A stretch of DNA of 38,526 nt from a virus. The position numbers and the translations under genes are program-made. Location: the IMG/VR virus record IMGVR_UViG_3300027896_000104, positions 1 to 38,526 of that record; one strand, given 5' to 3'. Positions 921-30,545 of this stretch are shown piece after piece (the stretch's first letter is position 1; every line of letters starts with the position of its first letter). The notes under the pieces are model-generated. The model worked only from the letters and a program-made list of their open reading frames with translations. It ran no database searches and was not told the origin of the DNA.

Positions 921-1712
921 TCAACCCCCCTCCGTTAGGTGTATAGGTGGCTGATTCGGAGCGGGTCTGGGAGTTCCCACCGGCCCCGGTCTGCTACTGC
1001 CCGGCGCTAGTCGTGGAGTCCCTGTCGGTGCCGGCCTCCCTTGCGGTACCGGCGTCGCGTCTCCCCCCACCGACCCATACCTGGTCGCGCCTGGCATAAA
1101 CTGACTCACAAAAAAGCTCAGCCGCGTACCCTTCGTCGGCATCGCGAGGAAGCCGCCGTAGTGCGCCGTGTTCGCGAGCGTGACGCACCACGCGCGCGTG
1201 TGGTCGCAGACGGTCGTGGCGCCCGCGTACTGGCAGCGCACGCCCTTGAACATCTCGGAGCACAGCCGCGTGCAGACGACGCCGATGCCCGACGAGTTAG
1301 CGATCGCGGGCAGTCTGCCGGTGAGGGTGGCCGAGCCGTCGTCGAAGGTCAGATCCACGACGATGCCGGGGAACTCGGTGATCGCGGTGAGTTGGTTGCC
1401 GGACGCATCGAACACGACCCGATAGAGGTTGATGGCCTTGCCGAGCAGGCCGCCGAAGGCGGTGCCGTCGTTGTCGGCGGTCGTGATCTTGCCGTCGGCG
1501 TTGTCGAGGTTGACCTTCAGGGTCGGGTCGTCGCTCAAGTCGATCGAGCTGACCGTGAGGCCGCCCCATGCGAAGGCGTTGCCGCCCACGGTGACGCCAG
1601 CGCGCGCGGTCGTGAGGCGGATCGGCGTGGCGCACAGAACCTCAACCGCCCAGCACAAGCGCACCGCGTCGGCCTGCAGGGCCGCGAGCACGCCGAGCGG
1701 GAGCGACCTCAT
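921..1712 (-). CDS. Minor tail protein, lambda gpL-like (DUF2163-like), 263 aa
   Basis: ATG overlaps the tape-measure stop (ATGA). The first 130 residues are a beta-rich domain (VTVGGNAFAWGGLTVSSIDL, later FDASGNQLTAITEFPG) of the kind found in DUF2163 tail proteins. Residues about 147-180 carry a four-cysteine signature, CTRLCSEMFKGVRC then VCDHT and WC, followed by HYGGF. This matches the metal-binding C-terminal motif of lambda L-type proteins that seed the tail tip. The last 40 residues are Pro/Gly/Arg-rich and probably disordered. It sits directly after the tape measure, where L-type proteins are normally encoded. Confidence 0.75.
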   Translation of the reverse strand: MRSLPLGVLAALQADAVRLCWAVEVLCATPIRLTTARAGVTVGGNAFAWGGLTVSSIDLSDDPTLKVNLDNADGKITTADNDGTAFGGLLGKAINLYRVVFDASGNQLTAITEFPGIVVDLTFDDGSATLTGRLPAIANSSGIGVVCTRLCSEMFKGVRCQYAGATTVCDHTRAWCVTLANTAHYGGFLAMPTKGTRLSFFVSQFMPGATRYGSVGGDATPVPQGRPAPTGTPRLAPGSSRPGPVGTPRPAPNQPPIHLTEGG

Positions 1713-4700
1713 GCCTGCCTCCCAAGCGACCCGGCGTCGGCGAAGCCCGGTCCACTGGTCCAGTAGGTCGGCTGCTCGCCGGCCGCCGTCGCAGCCGCCG
1801 CCGCGAGCCGGTAGAACGCTGATGTCACCGCGTCTGCTGCAACCGCGGTTGCGTCCAGGGACGTGGCCGCATTGCCCGCCGATGTCGCCTGCGCGTTCGT
1901 CCCTCCTGTCGCCGATTCAAGCGCCGTCGTCATGAGGTCGATCTGATCCTTCAGCAGCGCGTTCTTGTCGGAGACTTCCTTCTCCCACGCGGCGATCATG
2001 TCTTGGGCGGCCTTCTCGGCCGCAACGATATCGGCCTCGGCCTGCTGCCGGAAGGCGTAGTCGGGCGAGGCGCTGTCGCTGCTCAGGTTGACGTTCCAGA
2101 GCGACTGCCCGTACTTGAGGATCTCCGACATGATGGCCTGCACCTGCTCGGCGCTGGTGGCGCCGGCCAGGCTCGTGTTCAGGTCGGCCAACTGCTGCTT
2201 GTACCAGTCGGCGAGCTGCTGCGGACCCGCTTCCTTGGCCTTCTGCTCCTCGAAGCCCGTGAGTACGCCGGCGGTCGAGCTGGAGATCCCCTTCGAGATC
2301 GACTCGAGCTGCGCGAAATACTGCAAGCCGGCGGCGTACTGGCTGTTGGCGAGCGAGAGGAGGCTCTGCGCGTTGGCCACCTGCTCGGACGAGAACATCT
2401 GGTCGAGACTGGCGGTGAGCTCCTTCGCCTTCGACATCGTGTCGTCGAAGCCGGTGAGGAAGGCGCCGCGCAGCGTCTCGTTGACTTTCGCGCGCAGCTC
2501 GTCGGTCGTGGAGCCGAGGAGCTTGTCGACCGTCCCCATGTCCATGATCGCCTGGATCCACGCCGTGAACGACGCGAGCGCCGCGTCGAACTTGCCGGTG
2601 TCGAAGGATGCGAGCTCCTCAGCCTGGCGGCCGCCGCTGACGCCGATGCCCGTCATGCCGGTCTGCAGATAGGGCGTAAAGGCCTTGAACACCGTTCGCG
2701 GCGCCGCGGACGTGAGGATCTCCGACATGATCTGGCTGGCATCGGCGGTCTGGTCGTTCCACTTCGCCGACCACGATGGCGAGGCAAACGGCTGCTTCAT
2801 CGTGACCAACAGGCCACGCATCGAGATGGTGGTGGACTCGATCACGTCGGTCAGTTGGCGAACAAAGTCCTTCGTGCCCATGACGTCGGGGCCGCCGGGG
2901 TTGAATCCGGCGCCGACCAGGCCACCAGGGCCCCATTGGTAGTATGTGGAAGCCGCCTCGGCGGACCGCCCACTCCCGGCGATGACGCTGTATCCGTAGG
3001 ACTTCGAGCCGCCCGAGCTGAAGTAGCTGATCGCAGCCATGATGACCGCGGCAGCGGCGGCCACGATCGGATTCCCCCTGCTCATCTCCCAGCCTGAGAC
3101 GAAACCTGTGACCGCGCCGCCAGCGGTGGCCGCGGTGCGGTCGTTGTTCTGCGCTCCGTAGTACATGAGTCCGGCGCCCAAGAGTTGGCCGCCAGCCTCC
3201 AACTTCTGCGTGGTGGTCATGCTGCCCCAGCCACCCTGCAGAATGCCCTTGAAGTTCTTGTCGCCCGAGAGCGGCCCCTGCCCGCCGAAGAGCGCCTCCT
3301 CGAGCGTGTCCGACATGATCTTGCCGGCAGCCTTCGAGGCGTCCTTCCACATGTTCTCCCACGCCTTGTTGGCATCGCCCTCGAACAGAGACGTCGTGAC
3401 GTTGGCGAGGGATTTTTCGAGGCTCTTGACGGTGTCGCCCCAGTAGTCCTGCAGCCATTTCGCTTCGTACTGCGCCTTGGCCCGGTCGAGCGTGACCGAG
3501 ATGATGAGCGGGTCCACTTTCAGCGGCACGAGCACGACGTCGCGCCAGCTCGAGTACGCCTGGCCGGCGAAGAGCGCGGCCATCTTCGCGACGTCCGTCT
3601 GGTGAGCGAGGTCCTTGATCGCCTGCGCGTCGGCGTGGATCGCCGCCTGGTGCATGCCGTGCACGAAGGTTGAGTCGGAGACCGCGACCGTCTCGCCCTT
3701 CTGGAGGCGTATCCAGTCCTCGAGGCCGTAGGTTGCCTTGCTGATCCAGTCGGCGTCGGCGGCGATGGCATCCGCGTGGTCTTTCGCGGCTTTCGTGGCT
3801 GCCTCGCCGGCGGCGCTCTCGTTTTTGGTCGCCGCTGTCGCGCCCTCCTGTGCCGCTGTCTGCCCATCGAGCGCGACCTTGACCGCAGCCAGCTCGCGCT
3901 CGTGCTCTGCGAGCTTCTGAGTCAGGGCAAGGTAGGCCGACGACTCGTCGTCGAGGCCTTTCATTTTGTCCTTGTCCTGCTGGATCGTCGTCTGCATCAG
4001 CTTGACAAGCGTGGTGAGCTCGCCGGTTGTCAGCTTCGAGAGTGCGCTGTCGAAGTTCCGCTCTTCGGCTGTGATCCCGGAGAAGTTGTTCGCGATGCCC
4101 TTCAGGCCATCGGCCAAGAGCTTGGTCGCGCCCTGGAGCAGCCCTGTTTGCAGCACCACGTTGCCGAGGCTCTTCTTCGCTTCGTCCCACTGTGCTGCGT
4201 AGATCTTGATGCCGCCGCCGGCGAGAGCAACCTGCTCGGCCACGCCCTTGGTCTTGGCTTCGACGATATCAAGGATCGCGGCGCGCGCCGCGTCGATCCC
4301 ATTCGCTTCGTAAGCGTTGTTGATGTACGCCTGCTGCGCCTCGGTGAGTTTGATGTGAGCGGCCCGCAGACCAAGCGCCGCCTTTTCGGGAATGGTCATC
4401 GCGCGGCCGAGAGCGGCTGCTGCCGACGTCAGGTCCATGCCCCAGACGGCCGCGAGGTCGTTGGCTACCTTCAACGTCCGCTCGAACGCTTCGCCGCGGA
4501 CCACATTGAACGTCGCGAGCATGGCCGCGGCCGACTGCGTCGTCGCGATCGAGGTGCCCGTGAGGTTCAGGAGTCCTTGGGCGAAGTCGGTGATCGCGCC
4601 GGCCGTGAGGCCGGCCGAGAAGCCCGTCGCTCGTACGACGCCTTCGAGGCGCGCGTTCGCTTCCGCGGCCGTGATCGCTGCGGCTGTCGCGTCCTTCAGA

Positions 4701-4909
4701 AAGCCGACGGCCGCCTGGATCGAGACGTAGCCGGCGAACGCAGCCGCAACCTTCGAGGCGGCGCTCTCGAGCTCGTTGAACTTCGGGGCCGCTGTGCCGG
4801 CGGCATCGCCCGCTTTTCCCGTCTCGCCCTTGATGGCCTGCAAACCCGTGACTGCGCCCGACGCGTCGAGCTCGGCCTTGAAGAGGATGTCAGCGGTGCC
4901 GCTTGCCAT
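1709..4909 (-). CDS. Tail tape measure protein, 1066 aa
   Basis: This is the longest gene and follows the frameshifted chaperone pair directly, the invariant place for the tape measure in siphophages. The protein is Ala/Gly-rich and largely helical. The N-terminal 60 residues have the typical AELDASGAVTGLQ start. A long middle section predicted as coiled coil covers roughly residues 300-400. A hydrophobic stretch near residues 610-640 (NPIVAAAAAVIMAAISYF) is of the membrane-inserting type common in this family. At the usual 0.15 nm per residue the tail would be about 150-160 nm long. The start ATG lies 18 nt inside the end of the -1 frame chaperone. No lysozyme or peptidase motif is evident. 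Confidence 0.93.
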   Translation of the reverse strand: MASGTADILFKAELDASGAVTGLQAIKGETGKAGDAAGTAAPKFNELESAASKVAAAFAGYVSIQAAVGFLKDATAAAITAAEANARLEGVVRATGFSAGLTAGAITDFAQGLLNLTGTSIATTQSAAAMLATFNVVRGEAFERTLKVANDLAAVWGMDLTSAAAALGRAMTIPEKAALGLRAAHIKLTEAQQAYINNAYEANGIDAARAAILDIVEAKTKGVAEQVALAGGGIKIYAAQWDEAKKSLGNVVLQTGLLQGATKLLADGLKGIANNFSGITAEERNFDSALSKLTTGELTTLVKLMQTTIQQDKDKMKGLDDESSAYLALTQKLAEHERELAAVKVALDGQTAAQEGATAATKNESAAGEAATKAAKDHADAIAADADWISKATYGLEDWIRLQKGETVAVSDSTFVHGMHQAAIHADAQAIKDLAHQTDVAKMAALFAGQAYSSWRDVVLVPLKVDPLIISVTLDRAKAQYEAKWLQDYWGDTVKSLEKSLANVTTSLFEGDANKAWENMWKDASKAAGKIMSDTLEEALFGGQGPLSGDKNFKGILQGGWGSMTTTQKLEAGGQLLGAGLMYYGAQNNDRTAATAGGAVTGFVSGWEMSRGNPIVAAAAAVIMAAISYFSSGGSKSYGYSVIAGSGRSAEAASTYYQWGPGGLVGAGFNPGGPDVMGTKDFVRQLTDVIESTTISMRGLLVTMKQPFASPSWSAKWNDQTADASQIMSEILTSAAPRTVFKAFTPYLQTGMTGIGVSGGRQAEELASFDTGKFDAALASFTAWIQAIMDMGTVDKLLGSTTDELRAKVNETLRGAFLTGFDDTMSKAKELTASLDQMFSSEQVANAQSLLSLANSQYAAGLQYFAQLESISKGISSSTAGVLTGFEEQKAKEAGPQQLADWYKQQLADLNTSLAGATSAEQVQAIMSEILKYGQSLWNVNLSSDSASPDYAFRQQAEADIVAAEKAAQDMIAAWEKEVSDKNALLKDQIDLMTTALESATGGTNAQATSAGNAATSLDATAVAADAVTSAFYRLAAAAATAAGEQPTYWTSGPGFADAGSLGRQA

Positions 4910-10700: not shown

Positions 10701-11639
10701 GTTGTGCTCCTTCCCTTCCGCGCCGTCATCGGCGCCCTCGTCATCCTCACCGTCATCGGCAAGGCGTTGTTCGCTTGCTGCCACGGCCGCGAGGCCGTGA
10801 ATTGCCGGCGTGTTTGTCAGTCCGCCGCCAAGGATCTGCGGCATGTACCCGCCGTCCTTGCTGCGCTTGATGACCGCCGACAGGTAGCGGTACTCGTGAT
10901 CCTCGATCCGCTTACGCCCGGATGCGGTCCAGTCCACCGTGAGCCACACCCCGGGATCAAGTCCGGACGCGGCTGCATCGGCTGGGCGCACCACCTTTAC
11001 CGCGGTGATCCAGCCCGCCGCCGGCGCGTCTTGGAAACCCATGAGAGAGCTGTGGTTGTAGTCCACCGGAAGATCGGTGGTGCGCTTCGCGTAGCCCTGC
11101 TCAATTCCAGCGGCGAACGCATCGTCGACGACAACCGGCTTGCGTCCGTCCACGGGCGCGTTCTCGCCCCACTTGAAAAGCTGCACCGGCTTCGGCTGAG
11201 CGAAGTCCGCCGCCGGGAACTGCAACAGGTCCACCGAGCGGAATGCGAACAGCTTCTCGAACTGTGCGAGTGCGGCGAGTCCTGGCGTGACCGCTGACGC
11301 GGCGGTGTGTTCGTCGATGAGGTCGAGCAGACTGCCGGCGGCGTCGGCGATCGAGGTCGCGCTCTGCTGCGCGGCGCGGCTCTTGATCGCGATGACCGCC
11401 CGGCGGTAGACCTTGCCGTCCTTGCCGAACGGGTACTTGTACCGGCCCTTGGTCTCGGCGTCCACCGAGTCGTCCGTCCCCAGGAACCAACTCGCGTAGC
11501 CCTTCCAGTCGGATGAGCCGCCGAGCAGCTTGTTCTCGTCCTCAGCCGACATCGACCAGGAGCTCGTGCGGTCGACCTTCCCCGCCTTGATAAGGCTCTT
11601 CGCGTGCGATTCGGCAGCGGTGTTGAGCTTCACGCTCAT
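10164..11639 (-). CDS. Prohead protease fused to scaffold, Mu gpI-like, 491 aa
   Basis: ATG at 11637-11639 overlaps the stop of the minor head gene (ATGA) and has GGGAG six bases upstream. Residues 1-100 are a small domain (SSWSMSAEDENKLLGGSSDW, ending in a helix). Residues about 180-300 carry the protease part, with LPVDYNHSSLMGF, AAGWITAVKVV and ITNTP-like turns typical of Mu gpI-type maturation proteases. Residues 310-491 are a charged coiled coil rich in Ala, Glu and Lys, the scaffold. An acidic linker (DDGEDDEGADDGAEG) separates the two. The protease presumably cleaves the scaffold during head maturation. Confidence 0.82.
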   Translation of the reverse strand: MSVKLNTAAESHAKSLIKAGKVDRTSSWSMSAEDENKLLGGSSDWKGYASWFLGTDDSVDAETKGRYKYPFGKDGKVYRRAVIAIKSRAAQQSATSIADAAGSLLDLIDEHTAASAVTPGLAALAQFEKLFAFRSVDLLQFPAADFAQPKPVQLFKWGENAPVDGRKPVVVDDAFAAGIEQGYAKRTTDLPVDYNHSSLMGFQDAPAAGWITAVKVVRPADAAASGLDPGVWLTVDWTASGRKRIEDHEYRYLSAVIKRSKDGGYMPQILGGGLTNTPAIHGLAAVAASEQRLADDGEDDEGADDGAEGKEHNMDVLKEVGYASVDELKSALSELPTLRECAAKADTMAAQLTEANKRAETAEAALKTAKVDAAMAHAEALGRIPAESATFTDEQKAVRAFARKLAERDEELFGAWLKDTDSVTFGKPAPTGKLNPDTSAEQASREAASTFSLAGADPEETELVNQAVALSRAEKIPLETALARLEKGGRN

Positions 11640-13189
11640 GGATTGCTCCCTGGAGCCATCGGGGGATTGCTCCCCCACCCGGCCGCGTGCAGACGCTCCA
11701 CGAGAGACTGCTGCACGATCGTGTTGAGACCCCTGACGGACGGCGGTGCGTCGAAGCCTTCTGCGACGTGACCGAGCGGCGGCGGGCCTTCGTGCATCGT
11801 GGCGCCAAGGCCCTTGAGATCGCTCTCGTCGGCCGGGATCACATCGCAACGGCAATTGCTACAGAGGATGCCGGATGCTACAATATAACCAGAAGTAGCT
11901 TGGAGGTCATAGACATGACCGCTCCAATCGAACTCGGAAACCTTGACGACTTGATCGAGCACTACAACGCCGGGGTATCGCTCAAGCAGCTCTCGGTAGA
12001 GACCGGGGTCTCCCGCGCCTCGATCGCGCGTCAATTCCGAAAGCGCGGTATCGAGATCCGGGGTCGCTCCGAAGCGGAGCGAGTGAAGTGGAGTGCTGTT
12101 CGCGGCGACGATGCCATTGTGCGACGACAACTCGCTGCCGCTTGGGCAGCACGGCGGGGTGCCAAGGATCCCCTCGAGCGCAAGCTCCGTCGGGCCACAA
12201 CTCTCATGCGAACACTCGGCCACGCTCACCGGTTCGAAGCAGAGATCGCGGATCGCCTGCGAACCTGCGGTCTCGATGTCGTGCAGCAGTTGGCCATCGG
12301 CCACCGCAACGTCGATCTCGCCCTGGAATCCCGCCGCGTCGTGGTGGAAGTGCTCGGGCACTACCTCGCAACGGGCCAACATGCCGCTTTCACCCAACGC
12401 GTTGAAGACCTGGTCGATCTCGGTTGGTCCGTGCTGATCGTCCTCTGTGGGCCGCGATGGGGGCACAGGATCTGGTTCGACCTGGCTGCGATAGGCGAGG
12501 AGATCATCGCCTTCGCTCAATTTGCAGGCGGGAACAAGACCAGCCGGCGTGGCTATCGGGTGATTCGGGGTGACGGAAAGTACATTACCCTGCCGGGTCT
12601 CGATCCGCATCATGCGGCCCTGGTATGAGGCCCGATATCCAAGTTCGAACGAGCCCTGCACCTGCGTATCAGGCGGGAAGCAATTGAAATGCAGCGGGGG
12701 CCACAGGTCACCAGGAAACTCGTCCCGGGGCCACGTCAGACCATCGAGCGCGAGGCACTCCTCGCAGATCACGTCGTCATCGACCGCGTCGAACACCAGG
12801 TAGTCGACGAACTCGGAGTCGGTGAGCAAGTCGTAGCGCTCGGCCTCGCTGACGCTGTGAAGCGTCGTGCGGAAGATCGTGTCCTCGTGCCAGGCGCCAA
12901 GCGGAGAGCGCCAGCCGATGTCGTCGAGCATGGCCTTCCAGTCGCGGATCGTGCCGCCGCTCTGGATGATCTCGAGCAGCGACTCGCGCAGGCTCTCGAG
13001 CAGCGTCATGTCCGTCACCGTGGCGACGGACCACGCGAGATCCCACACGCCGGCGCCGAGCTCCGCGGCAATCGCCTCGATCTCCGCGGCGGGGAGGAGC
13101 AGCTTCTCGGCGAGGATCCGCTTCATTTCGTCGGGCGATGCCGGCTGGAAGGTCGGAGAAAACGGCGGCGTCCGTGGATTCTTAGGCAC
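11636..13189 (-). CDS. Minor head protein, Mu gpF / SPP1 gp7-like, interrupted by an intein (517 aa precursor)
   Basis: I chose the GTG at 13187-13189, which overlaps the end of the portal gene and has AAGGAG upstream. Earlier codons would run far into the portal. Residues 1-169 and 446-517 are the mature minor head protein (241 aa after splicing). They include the conserved IFRTTLHSVSEAERY helix, VCEEC-type VICEECLALDG, and PPLHFN directly followed after splicing by CRCDVIP, the hallmark PPxHxNCRC motif of the MuF family. Residues 170-445 are an intein inserted between that Asn and Cys. The protein enters the prohead with the portal. Splicing is required to restore the conserved motif, so head assembly probably depends on it. 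Confidence 0.9.
   Translation of the reverse strand: MPKNPRTPPFSPTFQPASPDEMKRILAEKLLLPAAEIEAIAAELGAGVWDLAWSVATVTDMTLLESLRESLLEIIQSGGTIRDWKAMLDDIGWRSPLGAWHEDTIFRTTLHSVSEAERYDLLTDSEFVDYLVFDAVDDDVICEECLALDGLTWPRDEFPGDLWPPLHFNCFPPDTQVQGSFELGYRASYQGRMMRIETRQGNVLSVTPNHPIATPAGLVPACKLSEGDDLLAYRSQVEPDPVPPSRPTEDDQHGPTEIDQVFNALGESGMLARCEVVPEHFHHDAAGFQGEIDVAVADGQLLHDIETAGSQAIRDLCFEPVSVAECSHESCGPTELALEGILGTPPCCPSGSELSSHNGIVAANSTPLHSLRFGATPDLDTALSELTRDRGAGDPGLYRELLERYPGVVVLDQVVKVSEFDWSGHVYDLQATSGYIVASGILCSNCRCDVIPADESDLKGLGATMHEGPPPLGHVAEGFDAPPSVRGLNTIVQQSLVERLHAAGWGSNPPMAPGSNP
11856..11906 (+). promoter_or_regulatory. Sigma70-type promoter and ribosome site of the antisense endonuclease
   Basis: TTGCTA (11856-11861) and TACAAT (11879-11884) are separated by exactly 17 bases, matching consensus at 4/6 and 5/6. 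GGAGG follows at 11902-11906, eight bases before the ATG. The -35 box begins on the intein's last codon and overlaps the AATTGC splice-junction sequence. The -10 box is antisense to Ile-Val of block F. Confidence 0.7.
11915..12628 (+). CDS. Vsr-like homing endonuclease encoded antisense inside the intein, 237 aa
   Basis: The start is ATG 11915-11917, eight bases after GGAGG, with a sigma70-type promoter just upstream. Residues 11-49 form a helix-turn-helix (YNAGVSLKQLSVETGVSRAS, then IARQFRKRGIEIR). Residues 105-180 have a Vsr/PD-(D/E)XK-like core: FEAEIADRL with E108/E110, then GLDVVQQLAIGHRNVDLAL with D134, then RRVVVEVLGHY with E145, then VEDLVDLGWSVLIVLC. HTH plus a Vsr-like nuclease is the layout of the EDxHD homing endonucleases found with introns and split inteins. 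It would cut intein-free minor head genes at the HFN/CRC codons. It is wholly antisense to intein residues 19-256. Unlike shadow frames elsewhere, it has a coherent fold, normal composition and its own signals. Confidence 0.85.
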   Translation: MTAPIELGNLDDLIEHYNAGVSLKQLSVETGVSRASIARQFRKRGIEIRGRSEAERVKWSAVRGDDAIVRRQLAAAWAARRGAKDPLERKLRRATTLMRTLGHAHRFEAEIADRLRTCGLDVVQQLAIGHRNVDLALESRRVVVEVLGHYLATGQHAAFTQRVEDLVDLGWSVLIVLCGPRWGHRIWFDLAAIGEEIIAFAQFAGGNKTSRRGYRVIRGDGKYITLPGLDPHHAALV

Positions 13190-19778: not shown

Positions 19779-20344
19779 GAGGACTTCCCCTGGTTCGGAA
19801 ACTCGCGGCGCTCGCGCCCGTCGTGCAGGTGATCCCACACCTCTCGGTGGATGATCCGCAGCACGTGCGACTTCGCGATCCCGTACTCCTTGCCGAGTTT
19901 CCGTGCTGTCGTCCCTCCCGCCGCGTAACGCTGGCGAATGGCAGACACGGTCTCGCCTGTCAACTTGGCGAAGCCGTTGGATTCCCCTCGGCTAACGCCC
20001 CAAGATGGCGGCTTCAGGCCCCTTGTGATCGCGTCGCGGACGTTGTCACTGCGCGAGCCGAGCGAGAGGTGGGCAGGGTTCGCGCAGCGCTTGTTGTCGC
20101 AGCCGTGGCACACGAACGCCACGCCTGGGTTGATGCCATTCGCCAAGAAAAAAGCCAGCCGGTGAGGTAGAACGGGGCTCACCGACCCGGGGCGGCAGAT
20201 CCAAAACCGCCCGTATCCAGTCCGGTAGAACGGTCCCTTCCACTCCCAGCACGCTTCCGGGCCGCCAGAGCGATCGACGCGAGACCAGAAACGGGCGATC
20301 TCCTTATGCGTGACCGACAGAGAGGCGAGGTCAACGAGTTTCAT
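19775..20344 (-). CDS. HNH endonuclease with C-terminal HTH, 189 aa
   Basis: The gene begins with FWSRVDRSGGPEACWEWKG, the usual opening of HNH_3-type phage endonucleases. The core has HR at 61-62, VCHGCDNKRCANPAHL at residues 78-93 with H80, N89 and H92, and GSRSDNVRDA. The C-terminus (TGETVSAIRQRYAAGGTTAR, then KLGKEYGIAKSHVLRIIHRE) is an HTH for target recognition. It is coupled by ATGA to SbcC and to the next gene, so it has merged into the operon. It may be a freestanding homing nuclease or a domesticated nicking enzyme. Confidence 0.88.
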   Translation of the reverse strand: MKLVDLASLSVTHKEIARFWSRVDRSGGPEACWEWKGPFYRTGYGRFWICRPGSVSPVLPHRLAFFLANGINPGVAFVCHGCDNKRCANPAHLSLGSRSDNVRDAITRGLKPPSWGVSRGESNGFAKLTGETVSAIRQRYAAGGTTARKLGKEYGIAKSHVLRIIHREVWDHLHDGRERREFPNQGKSS

Positions 20345-22647
20345 TGCCTCACCTCAATTCGCCCATTCTCAAGCCACAAAACGGAGTCGGCTTGGCTCCA
20401 AAGTTCAGGTTGCTGGCAGATAAACAGGATTTGATGAGCACCCGCGAGCTCGCGGGCTCGCCTGAGCATGGCGATGTACTTGTGAGCGTTCTCAGGATCC
20501 AATGCGCCCGCAGTTTCGTCGCGAAAAAGTGTTTGATAGCGCCGGCCTGAGCTCTTCCCCACGAAGATGGCCAACGCGAGCGAGACGGCTTCGGAGATCA
20601 CAACCTTCTCGCCACCGGAGAGCGAATCGACCGAGCCCTCCCGCCCACGCTCGTGATCGACGACCTTGAGATCGAAGATTTCCTTGGCGCCCTTGCCGTC
20701 CGCCTTCGGAGCCTGAGTCACGAACGCGACCTCAAAGCGGTCGGTGAACGATGAGTGCAGGAGGTCGTTGGTCAACCGGGAAAGTTCAGGTCCAGCCGCA
20801 TCGATCATCAATGCCTGAATCCCATCGCGGCCGAGTGCGCGCTCGAGCGTCACCCAGTCGCCGAGGTCGGCTTCCAGCGCGGCGGCCTGCTGCCCAGTCT
20901 GCGCTGCTCGCTCCTCGAGCTCGGCTCGGTGCTGTGCCTCGACCTCTGCGCGCGCGATCGCCGCCTCGATGGATCGAAGGTGCAGTCGGTCCGTTTCGAT
21001 GTCTCTGTCGATCCGGTACACCTCGTCAGCGCACGCGGTCATCTCGGACTTGAGCGCTCCCGTGTTGGCGTGCGCCATGCCCTCGAGGCCGGCCATCACC
21101 GCCGCGCGCTTGGCTTCGATACCGGCCATGTGCTCGCGGTAGTCCTGCTCGCGCTTGGCCAGCGTCAGCAGTGCATCCTCGAGCTGCTGGCCTATCTCGG
21201 CGGCGCGTACCTGTGCCGCCTGCGCGCCCGCTACGCGTGCTGCGAGCGGCTCCAGGCGTTCGACTTCGGCCTGTGCCGCAGCAAGGAGCTCCCGATCGGC
21301 CTTGACCGTCGCTTCGGCCTGGTCAACGTCGTGCTGGAACTGCGGAAGGGCAGCCTCGAGCGCTTCGATGTCGGCAACCTCGGCTTCGAGCCCGGTGATC
21401 GCATCCTTGGCAGTGCGTGCGTCAGCGAGGAGAGGACAGGTGCCCGACAGGTCGTGCGCGAAACCGGTCTGCGGACCCGGCGATCCGGCGGCGATCACGG
21501 CGTCGATCGCCTCCGCCCGGACCCACGCTCCCGCGACCGCACACGGCACTTCACCGAGTAGACCGGCCTGGCGTTGCGCAACCGCCATGCGCGTGCGGAC
21601 GGTGGCACCCTTGCCCGTGGCGCGGGTCTGCTCCAAGAGCGCCTCACGGGCCTCCCTGACTGCGTGTTCGCGATTGGTCACCGATGATTGAGCGGTGGCG
21701 CGCCCGACGCGCGCCGCGGGTAGCGCGTCTGCCGCGGCCTGGTACTCCGGCAGTCGCACGGCCAACTCCTGCGCCGCCGCAATCGCTGCCGCTGCTCGCT
21801 CGCGACCGCGCTCCTGCTCGGCCGGGATCGTCTTCAGCTTGTCCAGCAGAGAGGTGGTGTCACGATCGAGCGCTGCGATCTCTTGCTGCTTCGCTGTGCG
21901 CTGCTTCTCGGCTTCCATGGCCAGCGCGTGGCGCGTCTGCAGGTCGGCGTGACGCGCCCGCGCCGATTCGAGGTCAGCCTGTGCGGTCGCGATCGCCGCC
22001 TCGAGGCGTGTCTGTTCGGCCGCGAGGTCTTCGGTTGGTCCGGATCCGGTGAGGCGCTGCAGCTCGCTCTCAGCTTCCGCGAGTTGGCCGCGCAGTCTCT
22101 CGAGCGCCAGCTCGCCGGCCTTCGCCTTCGCGCGCGCGGACTCGGCAAGCCGTTGCAGGCCGCCAGTGTCGAGGATCTCGCTGAGGAGGTCCTTGCGCTC
22201 GGCCTTGGAGAGGTCCAGAAACGAGCCGCGCTTCGTCTGGCAAGAGAGCGCCGCTGACAGCATGAGGCGAGCGCTGCCGAAGCGGCGCTCGATCTCAGCG
22301 TAGAACTCGCGCACCTTGCCGTTCGTGATCGGCTCGCCGGAGCCGTTGTAGAGGTACGCCTCCGTGCGCTGGTGGTCGGCGTCCACCGCGACCAGGGCGC
22401 GGTACGGCTGGCCGTTGTCGAACTCGAGCTCGAGCTGCGCGTCCTTGCCGTGAGTGACGCCGTACAGCGAACCTTGGCGCGTCGGGAACTCACCGTAGAG
22501 CGCGGCGAAGGGCGCCTCGAGGATGGTTGTCTTGCCGGCGCCGTTCGCGCCGGCGATCGCGACCAAGCCCTCGCCGAGAGCGGCGAAGTCCACCTCGGTC
22601 TGGTCGAAGCGGGTGATCCCTTTGAGCGCGAGCCTACGGAGTCGCAT
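20341..22647 (-). CDS. sbcC: SbcC/Rad50-like ATPase, 768 aa
   Basis: I chose the ATG at 22645-22647 (MRLRRLALKGITRF); the longer frame reads into the upstream gene. Walker A is GANGAGKTT (residues 33-41). The C-terminal half carries the ABC signature LSGGEKVVISEAVSLALA and a Walker B/D-loop region, LFRDETAGALD. Between them lies about 450 residues of coiled coil (AEAELQRL-type heptads with many Ala, Glu and Arg). A classical CxxC zinc hook is not evident; single cysteines in VPCAVAGAW and GTCPLLADA occupy the middle. It acts with the SbcD-like nuclease in processing DNA ends and hairpins during phage recombination. Confidence 0.92.
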   Translation of the reverse strand: MRLRRLALKGITRFDQTEVDFAALGEGLVAIAGANGAGKTTILEAPFAALYGEFPTRQGSLYGVTHGKDAQLELEFDNGQPYRALVAVDADHQRTEAYLYNGSGEPITNGKVREFYAEIERRFGSARLMLSAALSCQTKRGSFLDLSKAERKDLLSEILDTGGLQRLAESARAKAKAGELALERLRGQLAEAESELQRLTGSGPTEDLAAEQTRLEAAIATAQADLESARARHADLQTRHALAMEAEKQRTAKQQEIAALDRDTTSLLDKLKTIPAEQERGRERAAAAIAAAQELAVRLPEYQAAADALPAARVGRATAQSSVTNREHAVREAREALLEQTRATGKGATVRTRMAVAQRQAGLLGEVPCAVAGAWVRAEAIDAVIAAGSPGPQTGFAHDLSGTCPLLADARTAKDAITGLEAEVADIEALEAALPQFQHDVDQAEATVKADRELLAAAQAEVERLEPLAARVAGAQAAQVRAAEIGQQLEDALLTLAKREQDYREHMAGIEAKRAAVMAGLEGMAHANTGALKSEMTACADEVYRIDRDIETDRLHLRSIEAAIARAEVEAQHRAELEERAAQTGQQAAALEADLGDWVTLERALGRDGIQALMIDAAGPELSRLTNDLLHSSFTDRFEVAFVTQAPKADGKGAKEIFDLKVVDHERGREGSVDSLSGGEKVVISEAVSLALAIFVGKSSGRRYQTLFRDETAGALDPENAHKYIAMLRRARELAGAHQILFICQQPELWSQADSVLWLENGRIEVRQ

Positions 22648-23377
22648 CGGCCGCCTCGCCGCCTGCTTCCGCGATCCCCAGGGGATCGGGATGCACGAAA
22701 CGCTCGCAGCGACACGCGCTGACGCCGCAGTGGCCCTCGGGTCCGAGGTCATGCAGCGACTCGTAGTGCTCGCACGTCAGGCAGGCGACGTCCTCATCCT
22801 CTCCGGCGCCCTCCACCGCGGGCGCCGGGTCTTCGGATGTTCCTACTGGCGCTAGTGGCGGCTCCTCGGTGGCGTCGCTGCCCGTCTCCGCGCCCTGGGC
22901 GTCCTCGTCCTCTGCCAGCGTGATGTTCGGCTTGCGCCTGCGGCGTGGTTTCTCAGGCTCCGCGCTCGCAGGTGTCGTCTCAGGAGCGGCCGTCGGCTTG
23001 GGCTCCTCGAAGAGATTCCCCTGCGCCCGGCGCGCAGCTTCCGCCTTCTCCTCGCGGTTCATCTCGCGCTGCTCGACGACTTCGCCGGTGTCCTCACGGA
23101 CCACCAACACCCGGCTCTCGACGAACACGTGCTCGACGCGGCACTCGACGGCGCGGAACTCGTACCCCTGTCGCAGCGTCATGGCGTCGCCGCGGAGTTC
23201 GGCCGTGAGGGTCTTGATCCGGTTGCTGTACTGCTGCGCGCAGCGGCTCTTCTCGCCCTCGAGCTGCTCGAGATCCGCGACAGCGCGTGCGACGGACTGC
23301 GCCTTTTCCTGGCGCTCGATCATGGTTAGGTCGCAACGGAGCGACCGGCTCTCCTTCCGGACGTAGTTGCTCGTCAT
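22634..23377 (-). CDS. Unknown protein between SbcC and SbcD, 247 aa
   Basis: ATGA-coupled to SbcD and overlapping the SbcC start by 14 nt. Residues 15-65 are helical (IERQEKAQSVARAVADLEQL), then comes a small beta domain (FRAVECRVEHVFVESRVLVV), a long acidic and Pro/Ala-rich linker (130-205), and a C-terminal Cys/His cluster (CLTCEHYESLHDLGPEGHCG, then CRCERF) that looks zinc-binding. Its placement between the two Mre11-Rad50 subunits suggests a partner role. No family recognised. Confidence 0.65.
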   Translation of the reverse strand: MTSNYVRKESRSLRCDLTMIERQEKAQSVARAVADLEQLEGEKSRCAQQYSNRIKTLTAELRGDAMTLRQGYEFRAVECRVEHVFVESRVLVVREDTGEVVEQREMNREEKAEAARRAQGNLFEEPKPTAAPETTPASAEPEKPRRRRKPNITLAEDEDAQGAETGSDATEEPPLAPVGTSEDPAPAVEGAGEDEDVACLTCEHYESLHDLGPEGHCGVSACRCERFVHPDPLGIAEAGGEAADATP

Positions 23378-24537
23378 TTCGCCACCTCACTTTCAAGGGT
23401 TGACAGCTTTTCGATGTGGGACTGCGTGATCTCCGTGCCGGTCGCGTTGCCCCAGGCCCGGAGTTTGTCCTCGACGGAGTGCGCCGCCGCCACTTCTGGC
23501 GCGCGCACGCGCTCGGCACTCGTCACAACGGGGACGATCTTGAGCGTGTGCGCCGCGGCGAAGCGGCGCTCAATGTCAGCGTGATCGAAGAGGTGCTGTT
23601 GCTCCTCGGAGCAGGTGTAGCGGTAGCGGACGTTTGCGTCGGCGAAGGAATCCGTCGAGAATGTGCCATCGCTGCAGGTCTCCTCGATGGCCCCGTGATG
23701 ATCGGCCACGGTTTCGATCGTTACCCATCGACGGCACGGCGTCTCAAGCCACTCCCAGCTCGCCGTGCCGTCGTCCTCCACCGTCAGAATCCCGATGCGT
23801 TTCTGCTCGTCCTCCTCGCCGAAGTTGCAGCAGGTGAGCGAGCCGATGTACTCCACGCCCGGCGCGAGCTGCTGCGGCTTGTGAACGTGACCCAACACCA
23901 CAGCCGCGGCGCCAAGGTCCTGAAGATCACCCAGGACAGCCTCAATGGCCTTGCCGATCAGAGGCTGCGCGCTCGAAGACTGCGCACCAAGCACCTGGAG
24001 ATGACCGAGGATCACGAGCGGCCGCTTCGGGAACAAGCGCGCCGCGACCATGCCGCGTAGCATCGCGGCGAGCGCTGCGCTGCCAGCCTGGTCACCTGCC
24101 TCGCCCGTGTATCCGTTCGCAGCGAGGTAGGCGCGATCGGGCCAAGGGACGCACAGCACGTCGACACCGGCGGCGGGACCACGTTCAACCTGGCCGATCG
24201 CGTGAACCGTTTCGAGACACGGGATCTCAAACGCATCCACGAGGGCGTAACCGCAAAACACCGAGAGCTCCCGCGGTTGGTCGTGGTTGCCCTTGATTAT
24301 GAGGACCGGACGATCGTCACCATGTGGCGTGATCGACAGGTTGTCGAGGACCGCCCCAAGTTCCGCGCGCTCGGTGGGGTTGCTCTTGCCCTCGAAGGCG
24401 TCGCCCGCGATCAGCACCGCGTCGACCTCGCGATGGTCGGCGAGTTGGCAAGCGAATCCGAGGCAGTTGACGATATCGTCGAAGTGCTCGCCGTCGCGGA
24501 GATGGCAGTCACCGATGAGGAGGAAGCGGGTGGTCAT
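23374..24537 (-). CDS. sbcD: SbcD/Mre11-like nuclease, 387 aa
   Basis: This is a calcineurin-like metallophosphoesterase with all metal-binding motifs: GDCHL (D10, H12), AGDAFEG (D46), KGNHD (N84, H85, D86), VILGHLQV, and VVLGHVHKP. DVDAVLIAGD-type spacing matches SbcD/Mre11. The C-terminal 130 residues form the capping region (FGEEDEQKRIGILTVEDDG onward). Length agrees with bacterial and phage SbcD. It pairs with the SbcC-like ATPase two genes downstream. Confidence 0.92.
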   Translation of the reverse strand: MTTRFLLIGDCHLRDGEHFDDIVNCLGFACQLADHREVDAVLIAGDAFEGKSNPTERAELGAVLDNLSITPHGDDRPVLIIKGNHDQPRELSVFCGYALVDAFEIPCLETVHAIGQVERGPAAGVDVLCVPWPDRAYLAANGYTGEAGDQAGSAALAAMLRGMVAARLFPKRPLVILGHLQVLGAQSSSAQPLIGKAIEAVLGDLQDLGAAAVVLGHVHKPQQLAPGVEYIGSLTCCNFGEEDEQKRIGILTVEDDGTASWEWLETPCRRWVTIETVADHHGAIEETCSDGTFSTDSFADANVRYRYTCSEEQQHLFDHADIERRFAAAHTLKIVPVVTSAERVRAPEVAAAHSVEDKLRAWGNATGTEITQSHIEKLSTLESEVAK

Positions 24538-29378: not shown

Positions 29379-30545
29379 ATGGCAAGGCGCAGATCAGCCC
29401 CAACCTACCTCGTCAAACGCCGCGGCAAGTGGCACGGGCGCTTTCGCCACGTCGACAGCATCGGTCAGGTGCACTGGCCCTGCCATATCTCGCCGGCGCC
29501 TCTCGACTACCGCCGCTCGCTGCTGTGGGCGCAGACGTGGCGAGCCGAGTGGATCCACGCGCACGAGCTCGAGCTGCGCTGCGAAGACGAGGAGCGCCGG
29601 CGCCCACCGACGCTTGGCGAACTGCTCGACGCCTATGCGGCCGACTGCCAGGAGCGCGGTACGCGGTGGGATCGCGAGTGTAGCCGCGCGAAGTGGATCC
29701 AGGCAACGCTCGGCCGCGAGACACCCTACTCGGATCTCACCCCGGCTCGGATCGCATCGTGGCGGACTGCGCTGCGCAGCGGGCGCCACCTGTCACCGCG
29801 CAGCCTCAACGCCTACGCGACGCTGCTCCAGGCGGCGCTCAATCTCGCTGTGAGGTCCGGCGCTATCCCGGTGAACCCGATCCGCCACCTGGGAAAGTTG
29901 CCGGAACTGCGGGGCATGCCGGAGGCGCTCTCGCTGCGACAGGTGCATGGCCTGATCGGGGCGATCGAGGAGTACGAGGCTGCCGGCGCCACCGTGCCAC
30001 TTCGCGGAATCGTGCTGACCTGCTACTACACCCTGGCGCGCACCGGGAACGTCCTGGCGCTTCGGTGGGAAGATGTTGACCTCGAGCGGGGCGAGATCAC
30101 CTTCCCGCGGACCAAGACGGGCCGGCGCATCGTGGTGCCGATCCGCGCGCAGCTCGCTGCCTACCTGGCGACGCTCGTCCCTGCCAGCGGCTACCTGTGG
30201 CCCAGCCCGCGCACCGGGAAGCCGTACACTGACGTGGCGCGTCCTTGGCGCAGCCTGATCCGACTCGCCAACGCGAGACTCGGGCCAAGCGAGCAGATCC
30301 CGCCGGCGCAGCGCCTCTACTCCCTGCGCCACTCCGGGATCTCACACCTACTGCTCGCCGGCGTCCCGCCGCAAGTCGTGGCGCAACTCGCCGGCAACAG
30401 CGTCGCGGTGATCGACCGCCACTATGCGCACCTGCACGACGACGCGCTTCACCGCGCGCTCGCGATGGCTGACGCGAGCCCGATCCTCGAACCGCACGTG
30501 CCTGGTATATTTGTACCTGGAGGCGAGCATGAAAGCACAAACTGA
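29379..30545 (+). CDS. int: Tyrosine integrase, 388 aa
   Basis: Residues 1-75 hold an arm-binding domain, 76-175 the core-binding SAM-like domain (TLGELLDAYAADCQERGTRW, SLNAYATLLQAALNLAVRSG), and 180-365 the catalytic domain. The catalytic residues are R221 (LARTGNV), K246 (TKTGRR), R317-H318 (YSLRHSG) and nucleophile Y349 (DRHYAHL). Two usual His positions are changed: Y314 in the box II HxxR position and N340 in place of the LGHxS His. It acts at the tRNA-Asp attP 480 bp downstream. Reported active integrases tolerate such changes, so the enzyme is probably functional. Confidence 0.92.
   Translation: MARRRSAPTYLVKRRGKWHGRFRHVDSIGQVHWPCHISPAPLDYRRSLLWAQTWRAEWIHAHELELRCEDEERRRPPTLGELLDAYAADCQERGTRWDRECSRAKWIQATLGRETPYSDLTPARIASWRTALRSGRHLSPRSLNAYATLLQAALNLAVRSGAIPVNPIRHLGKLPELRGMPEALSLRQVHGLIGAIEEYEAAGATVPLRGIVLTCYYTLARTGNVLALRWEDVDLERGEITFPRTKTGRRIVVPIRAQLAAYLATLVPASGYLWPSPRTGKPYTDVARPWRSLIRLANARLGPSEQIPPAQRLYSLRHSGISHLLLAGVPPQVVAQLAGNSVAVIDRHYAHLHDDALHRALAMADASPILEPHVPGIFVPGGEHESTN

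Follow-up and report, generated by a model that had tools for sequence, protein, structure and literature searches.

The window analyzed here is the whole 38,526-nucleotide stretch of IMG/VR record IMGVR_UViG_3300027896_000104, a contig of an uncultivated virus. On its minus strand lies a MuF-type minor head gene with a GTG start at 13189 that overlaps the end of the portal gene and a stop at 11636; profiles and PHROG matches identify a Mu-like portal gene before it and a Mu-like protease gene after it. This gene is interrupted by an intein, and the DNA of the intein encompasses, on the plus strand, a putative homing-endonuclease gene (HEG). The features of the locus are the following:

11636..13189, minus strand: MuF-type minor head gene, precursor of 517 aa (Phage_Mu_F and SPP1 gp7 profiles, PHROG head proteins)
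12683..13189, minus strand: N-extein, ending in ...PPLHFN
11855..12682, minus strand: intein, 276 aa, C1...SN/C+1 (Intein_splicing profile, model compared with solved inteins)
12557..12571, minus strand: intein block B, TPNHP (T38, H41), both residues invariant in 63 inteins
12338..12355, minus strand: EHFHHD in the intein frame, the form that the conserved [DN]FHGD motif takes in the window; the same DNA encodes HEG V142-L147, among them the predicted catalytic E145
11855..11917, minus strand: intein C-terminal blocks F and G (HVYDLQ...ILCSN), with H256, V257 and N276 conserved
11636..11854, minus strand: C-extein, beginning with CRC
11856..11884, plus strand: sigma-70-like promoter candidate TTGCTA-17-TACAAT, in which TG precedes the second hexamer; it lies upstream of the HEG and opposite the last intein codons
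11902..11907, plus strand: Shine-Dalgarno sequence GGAGGT of the HEG, 7 nt upstream of the ATG and opposite intein D-L-Q of block F
11915..12628, plus strand: antisense HEG, 237 aa, with its ATG opposite intein His256
11942..12043, plus strand: helix-turn-helix (HTH) region for DNA binding, HEG residues 10-43 (up to 29 of 63 members match HTH families)
12215..12514, plus strand: Vsr/DUF559-fold nuclease core with E108, N132, D134 and E145

Elsewhere in the window, phage SbcC-like and SbcD-like genes (20341-24537, minus strand), a 1066-aa ORF without a PHROG match (1709-4909, minus strand) and an integrase profile match (phrog_1; 29379-30545, plus strand) were observed; the integrase match makes it probable that the element is a temperate phage or a prophage.

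The initial annotation had the minor head gene split at HFN/CRC by a continuous 276-aa intein, and this assignment holds to the nucleotide. The Intein_splicing profile of Pfam matches the window intein and the inteins of 63 out of 63 relatives; C1, T38, H41 and N276 are invariant in the 63 aligned inteins, and Cys +1 is present in the window. Ser takes the place of the canonical His as the penultimate residue, a feature common to most relatives. The exteins give a weak Phage_Mu_F match in Pfam. The best matches of the predicted intein structure are solved inteins (E about 1e-3), with both Hint halves modeled at pLDDT >90, residues ~81-130 at 81-94, and residues ~150-215 mostly below 50, that is, disordered. 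No in-frame homing-nuclease profile was detected in any of the 63 intein frames; the nuclease profile sits on the opposite strand. The two separate ORFs of a split-intein fractured gene were not found at this locus either, as one continuous frame spans both exteins.

The complete plus-strand gene of 237 aa that had been proposed inside the intein DNA is likewise present exactly at 11915-12628. The two frames share the codon register, position 1 of each plus codon being paired with position 3 of a minus codon, and residue i of the HEG facing residue 257-i of the intein.

To assess how common this arrangement is, we compared several searches. With the plus-strand protein alone, tblastn retrieved 97 phage records, and with the intein 112; the matching phages infect Pseudomonas, Cronobacter, Gordonia, Mycobacterium, Vibrio, Salmonella, Escherichia, Pantoea and Idiomarinaceae. 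The scan of viral contigs yielded at least 564 relatives, of which the best 80 were kept, and the search of bacterial genomes added 57 loci; in genome loci the intein end was assigned by pattern. Individual loci, from phages and bacteria alike, carry identifiers beginning with L below. Stops in the plus frame of homologous inteins had been named at the outset as the observation that would speak against the antisense gene, but the ORF is intact in 140 of 145 distinct related inteins (L117 was left out of this classification), including loci at 35-40% G+C. The remaining five comprise L071, L073 and L097, which have internal stops, and the mini-inteins L125 and L156, which retain a truncated remnant. 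A scan for the EDFHGDG motif, which draws on the intein alone, recovered 72 inteins, in 71 of which the HEG profile matches the antisense strand at E<1e-38; the sole exception is L198, a 161-aa mini-intein. Thus, the search for relatives with an antisense Vsr-like ORF revealed a widespread class instead of a single case, and the two-way arrangement is shared by far more than a hundred distinct inteins of phages and prophages. The antisense gene is unannotated in every annotated record we inspected.

Several variants were observed among the relatives. Loci L181, L188, L190, L191, L192, L207 and L231 carry the same element in head-type proteins in a different context (SRCIILAG...HPR/CDC...). The archaeal inteins L159 and L161, assigned by pattern, apparently possess conventional in-frame nuclease regions, and their antisense runs span only 41-56 codons, making them a useful negative control.

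Profile searches place the HEG protein with Vsr/DUF559/EDxHD nucleases, in agreement with the fold search; the anticipated alternative had been that no such match would be found. The AlphaFold model has a mean pLDDT of 92.8, with predicted HTH helices at residues 10-18, 23-30 and 34-43, and Foldseek ranks I-Bth0305I first among solved structures; Vsr and 3hrl, which is DUF559-like, also rank high. The putative active site is highly conserved: E108 in 139/142 proteins, N132 in 139/144, D134 in 143/144 and E145 in all 144. The Vsr-like fold and the catalytic E and D of the EDxHD/Vsr-like group (E108 and D134, plus E145) are accordingly present, but the His that follows the core strand in EDxHD/Vsr enzymes is not conserved, [WFY]H being found in only 34 of 144 HEG proteins. 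The proposal of an HTH followed by a Vsr-like nuclease core is therefore borne out by profiles and fold, whereas the accompanying assignment to the EDxHD family fails as a strict match, because the signature is E-N-D-E, with W-H in only those 34 proteins; we reject strict EDxHD membership.

The signals that might drive expression of the HEG are embedded in the codons of the splice junction. The block F His is encoded by CAT, the complement of the antisense ATG, in 94 of 116 cases compared to 359 of 977 for other His (p=4e-20). Family-wide, TATAAT occurs upstream of the HEG 25 times versus 5.1 expected from synonymous codons and is the most enriched among all 20 permutations of its letters, although the -10 excess partly reflects the general A+T richness of the junction. 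Similarly, the ribosome-binding-site motifs GGAGG (29 versus 12.4) and GAGGT (46 versus 20.5) exceed the synonymous expectation. It is these promoter and ribosome-binding-site statistics that support a separate timing of nuclease expression.

Given that, in this exact register, antisense stops arise only opposite TTA, CTA and TCA, codons that are rare at high G+C, the plus-strand ORF could conceivably be a shadow of conserved intein codons in G+C-rich DNA and no real gene. In the window, the plus frame stays without stops in 22% of synonymous intein recodings, so that the open frame in the window alone proves little, and the recoded antisense frame still reaches 122 bits of 261, about half of the HEG profile score. 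Nevertheless, we consider such an artefact extremely improbable, and we reject it on the basis of the recoding controls, the codon-position test and the low-G+C members. The plus-strand protein scores 261 bits against a leave-one-out profile of its relatives, compared to a maximum of 158 bits in 500 recodings. Over the 145 relatives, which are not phylogenetically independent, the summed log10 probability of the open frames is about -374; Leu/Ser codons giving antisense stops number 6 of 6356 in the overlap versus 991 of 8973 in the exteins; and at 35-40% G+C, where each locus would be expected to stay open with a probability of about 1e-5 to 1e-19, all frames are open. In 19 non-overlapping pairs, substitutions at sense positions 1/2/3 are distributed 23/19/59% in the exteins and 48/21/31% in the middle of the overlap, and over intein codons 152-236 changes at sense position 1 are in 2- to 4-fold excess in close pairs. 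Sense position 1 is position 3 of the HEG, i.e., the wobble position of the antisense gene. The practically invariant active site, the nuclease fold (pLDDT 93) and the excess of start codon, ribosome-binding site and -10 box also argue against a shadow. By these measures of selection, the antisense frame is a real gene.

The converse possibility is that the middle of the element serves the nuclease alone, with the intein frame staying open there as a passive linker that translation reads through. This holds for part of the region: intein residues ~150-215 are those predicted to be disordered (pLDDT <50), codons 152-200 show an identity of 0.69-0.73 in the intein frame versus 0.86-0.92 in the HEG frame in close pairs, and the intein frame at ~150-215 scores 66 bits, no better than HEG-recoded controls (maximum 67). 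For the middle as a whole, however, we regard a passive linker as unlikely, because codons 84-150 are constrained in both frames and this part of the intein model is mostly confident. HEG E145 lies opposite intein F112 of DFHGD, and its codon is GAA, which preserves the intein Phe, in 117 of 144 cases compared to 925 of 2012 for other Glu (p=4e-17). Moreover, the DFHGD motif survives in mini-inteins without an intact nuclease. Thus, a pure linker is rejected for residues 84-150 and retained for 150-236. The intein subdomain opposite the nuclease core is itself under selection, and hence the DNA is truly dual-coding; the strictly dual-coding stretch is roughly 65 codons, and intein residues ~150-236 can be accounted for as a shadow of the nuclease.

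Empty junctions in phages of E. coli, Salmonella and Gordonia show that, compared with homologues lacking the intein, the insertion is precise and in frame. Clean empty sites are found in sister phages, namely KMB35 versus KMB36, AG11 versus LP31, Jabberwocky versus Vivi2/Fosterous, and Zitch versus ViaConlectus; low-complexity masking probably shortened one empty-site query. In the pairs L071/L084, L006/L016, L008/L058 and L093/L095, third-position differences amount to 27-51% in the exteins versus 3-9% in the non-overlapped intein ends, whereas L022/L023 show the reverse pattern, with exteins more alike than inteins. In Gordonia phages with near-identical MuF flanks, two very different inteins, of 275 and 316 aa, occupy the same site. 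Together, the empty sites and the inteins that are more alike than their exteins indicate mobility and horizontal spread. L071, L073, L097, L125, L156 and L198 retain an intact intein frame despite a broken, truncated or missing nuclease. Decay of the nuclease while the intein is kept because the head gene needs it fits the homing cycle of other elements.

Further observations concern the insertion sites and the reduced forms. Each of the two differing Gordonia inteins (L009/L012 versus L010/L022/L023) has its own antisense nuclease. MuF proteins contain at least two insertion points, PPAHPN/CRC and an upstream site, TSTT/CRARDG in KMB36 (L019 versus L006/L016; L014), and the insertion context in Sejanus is ...KVWV/CTIDG. 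In L006/L282 and L016/L284, flank identity is 0.53-0.60 within about 15 bp downstream of the insertion and higher further out, a dip that is as expected if co-conversion or target-site drift had occurred. The mini-inteins L125 (210 aa), L156 (194 aa) and L198:5807 (161 aa), all in MuF-type genes, keep the DFHGD region, with the antisense nuclease truncated or lost.

MTES_1575/DUF559 folds also occur in enzymes outside homing, and the antisense nuclease could accordingly be real but non-homing, serving, for example, to cleave the DNA of competing phages or of the host. We view this as improbable given that the gene sits inside an intein whose presence is polymorphic at one exact site, that the inteins are more alike than the exteins, and that the nearest structure is a homing endonuclease.

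The reading we favor, with a probability of roughly 90%, is that the phage minor head protein carries a mobile intein and that the homing endonuclease of this intein is expressed on its own, from a gene antisense to it. The continuous intein with an antisense Vsr-like homing-endonuclease gene inside it, as envisaged in the initial annotation, is supported by the profiles, the fold, the open frames and the empty sites. Under the proposed mechanism, the minus strand would be transcribed late with the head genes, yielding the 517-aa precursor, which would splice into a 241-aa head protein and the free 276-aa intein. From the plus strand, a promoter, ribosome-binding site and start codon of its own, located within the codons of the last intein blocks, would yield the 237-aa HTH and Vsr-fold nuclease separately. 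In mixed infections, the most likely target of the nuclease would be the conserved insertion site in MuF genes that lack the intein; repair of the cut would then copy the whole element across, both genes together. The two frames, selection on both, the nuclease fold, active-site conservation, empty sites, horizontal spread and the loss of the nuclease in mini-inteins are documented at the level of sequence.

Fractured genes, as reportedly described by Dassa and colleagues in 2009, involve a free-standing nuclease gene that splits both the intein and the host gene. Like these split inteins with a free-standing Vsr-like endonuclease, the window element combines an intein with a Vsr-fold nuclease gene that encodes its own protein, but here the intein and the host gene form one continuous frame, with the nuclease antisense inside it. 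With I-Bth0305I and the EDxHD enzymes it shares the nuclease core fold (3r3p, TM 0.75 to target) and a separate DNA-binding region, and the E, N and VE positions of I-Bth0305I align; it differs in the E-N-D-E signature, in the rarity of W-H after the last Glu (34/144) and in residing in an intein, not an intron. In known mobile inteins, the nuclease (LAGLIDADG or HNH) is translated as a fusion with the intein (PMC3943268). Shared with these are the pairing of a self-splicing element with a homing nuclease, the insertion into an essential protein at a conserved motif, and the existence of empty alleles; in the window element, however, the nuclease has a gene of its own, which overlaps the splicing domains on the opposite strand. 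Antisense homing-endonuclease genes are present in nuclear rDNA group I introns, according to one report (PMC9548176); there too, the homing gene is antisense to its self-splicing carrier, but the carrier is a eukaryotic RNA intron and the nuclease is of the His-Cys type. In the window the carrier is itself protein-coding, so that the DNA codes for two proteins. The parts, namely inteins, Vsr-fold homing nucleases and antisense nuclease genes in group I introns, are known; in the open-access literature we found no description of an antisense nuclease within an intein, and an earlier report elsewhere is possible.

We consider it likely that these loci represent a widespread, undescribed class of mobile element, in which one DNA, read on opposite strands in the same register, encodes an intein and the nuclease that spreads it, with the active site opposite a selected intein subdomain and the promoter, ribosome-binding site and start within the splice-junction codons. 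Such elements would break the rule that the endonuclease of an intein is a domain of the intein, and they reveal a gene family absent from the annotation of every record inspected. They also provide an unusually clear case of long antisense dual coding (>230 codons), replicated across phages of Proteobacteria, Actinobacteria and others, so that constraint on both strands is directly measurable, with the small splicing-only forms as natural controls, and place the conserved intein motif DFHGD opposite the nuclease active site. A nuclease expressed separately could follow a timing of its own.
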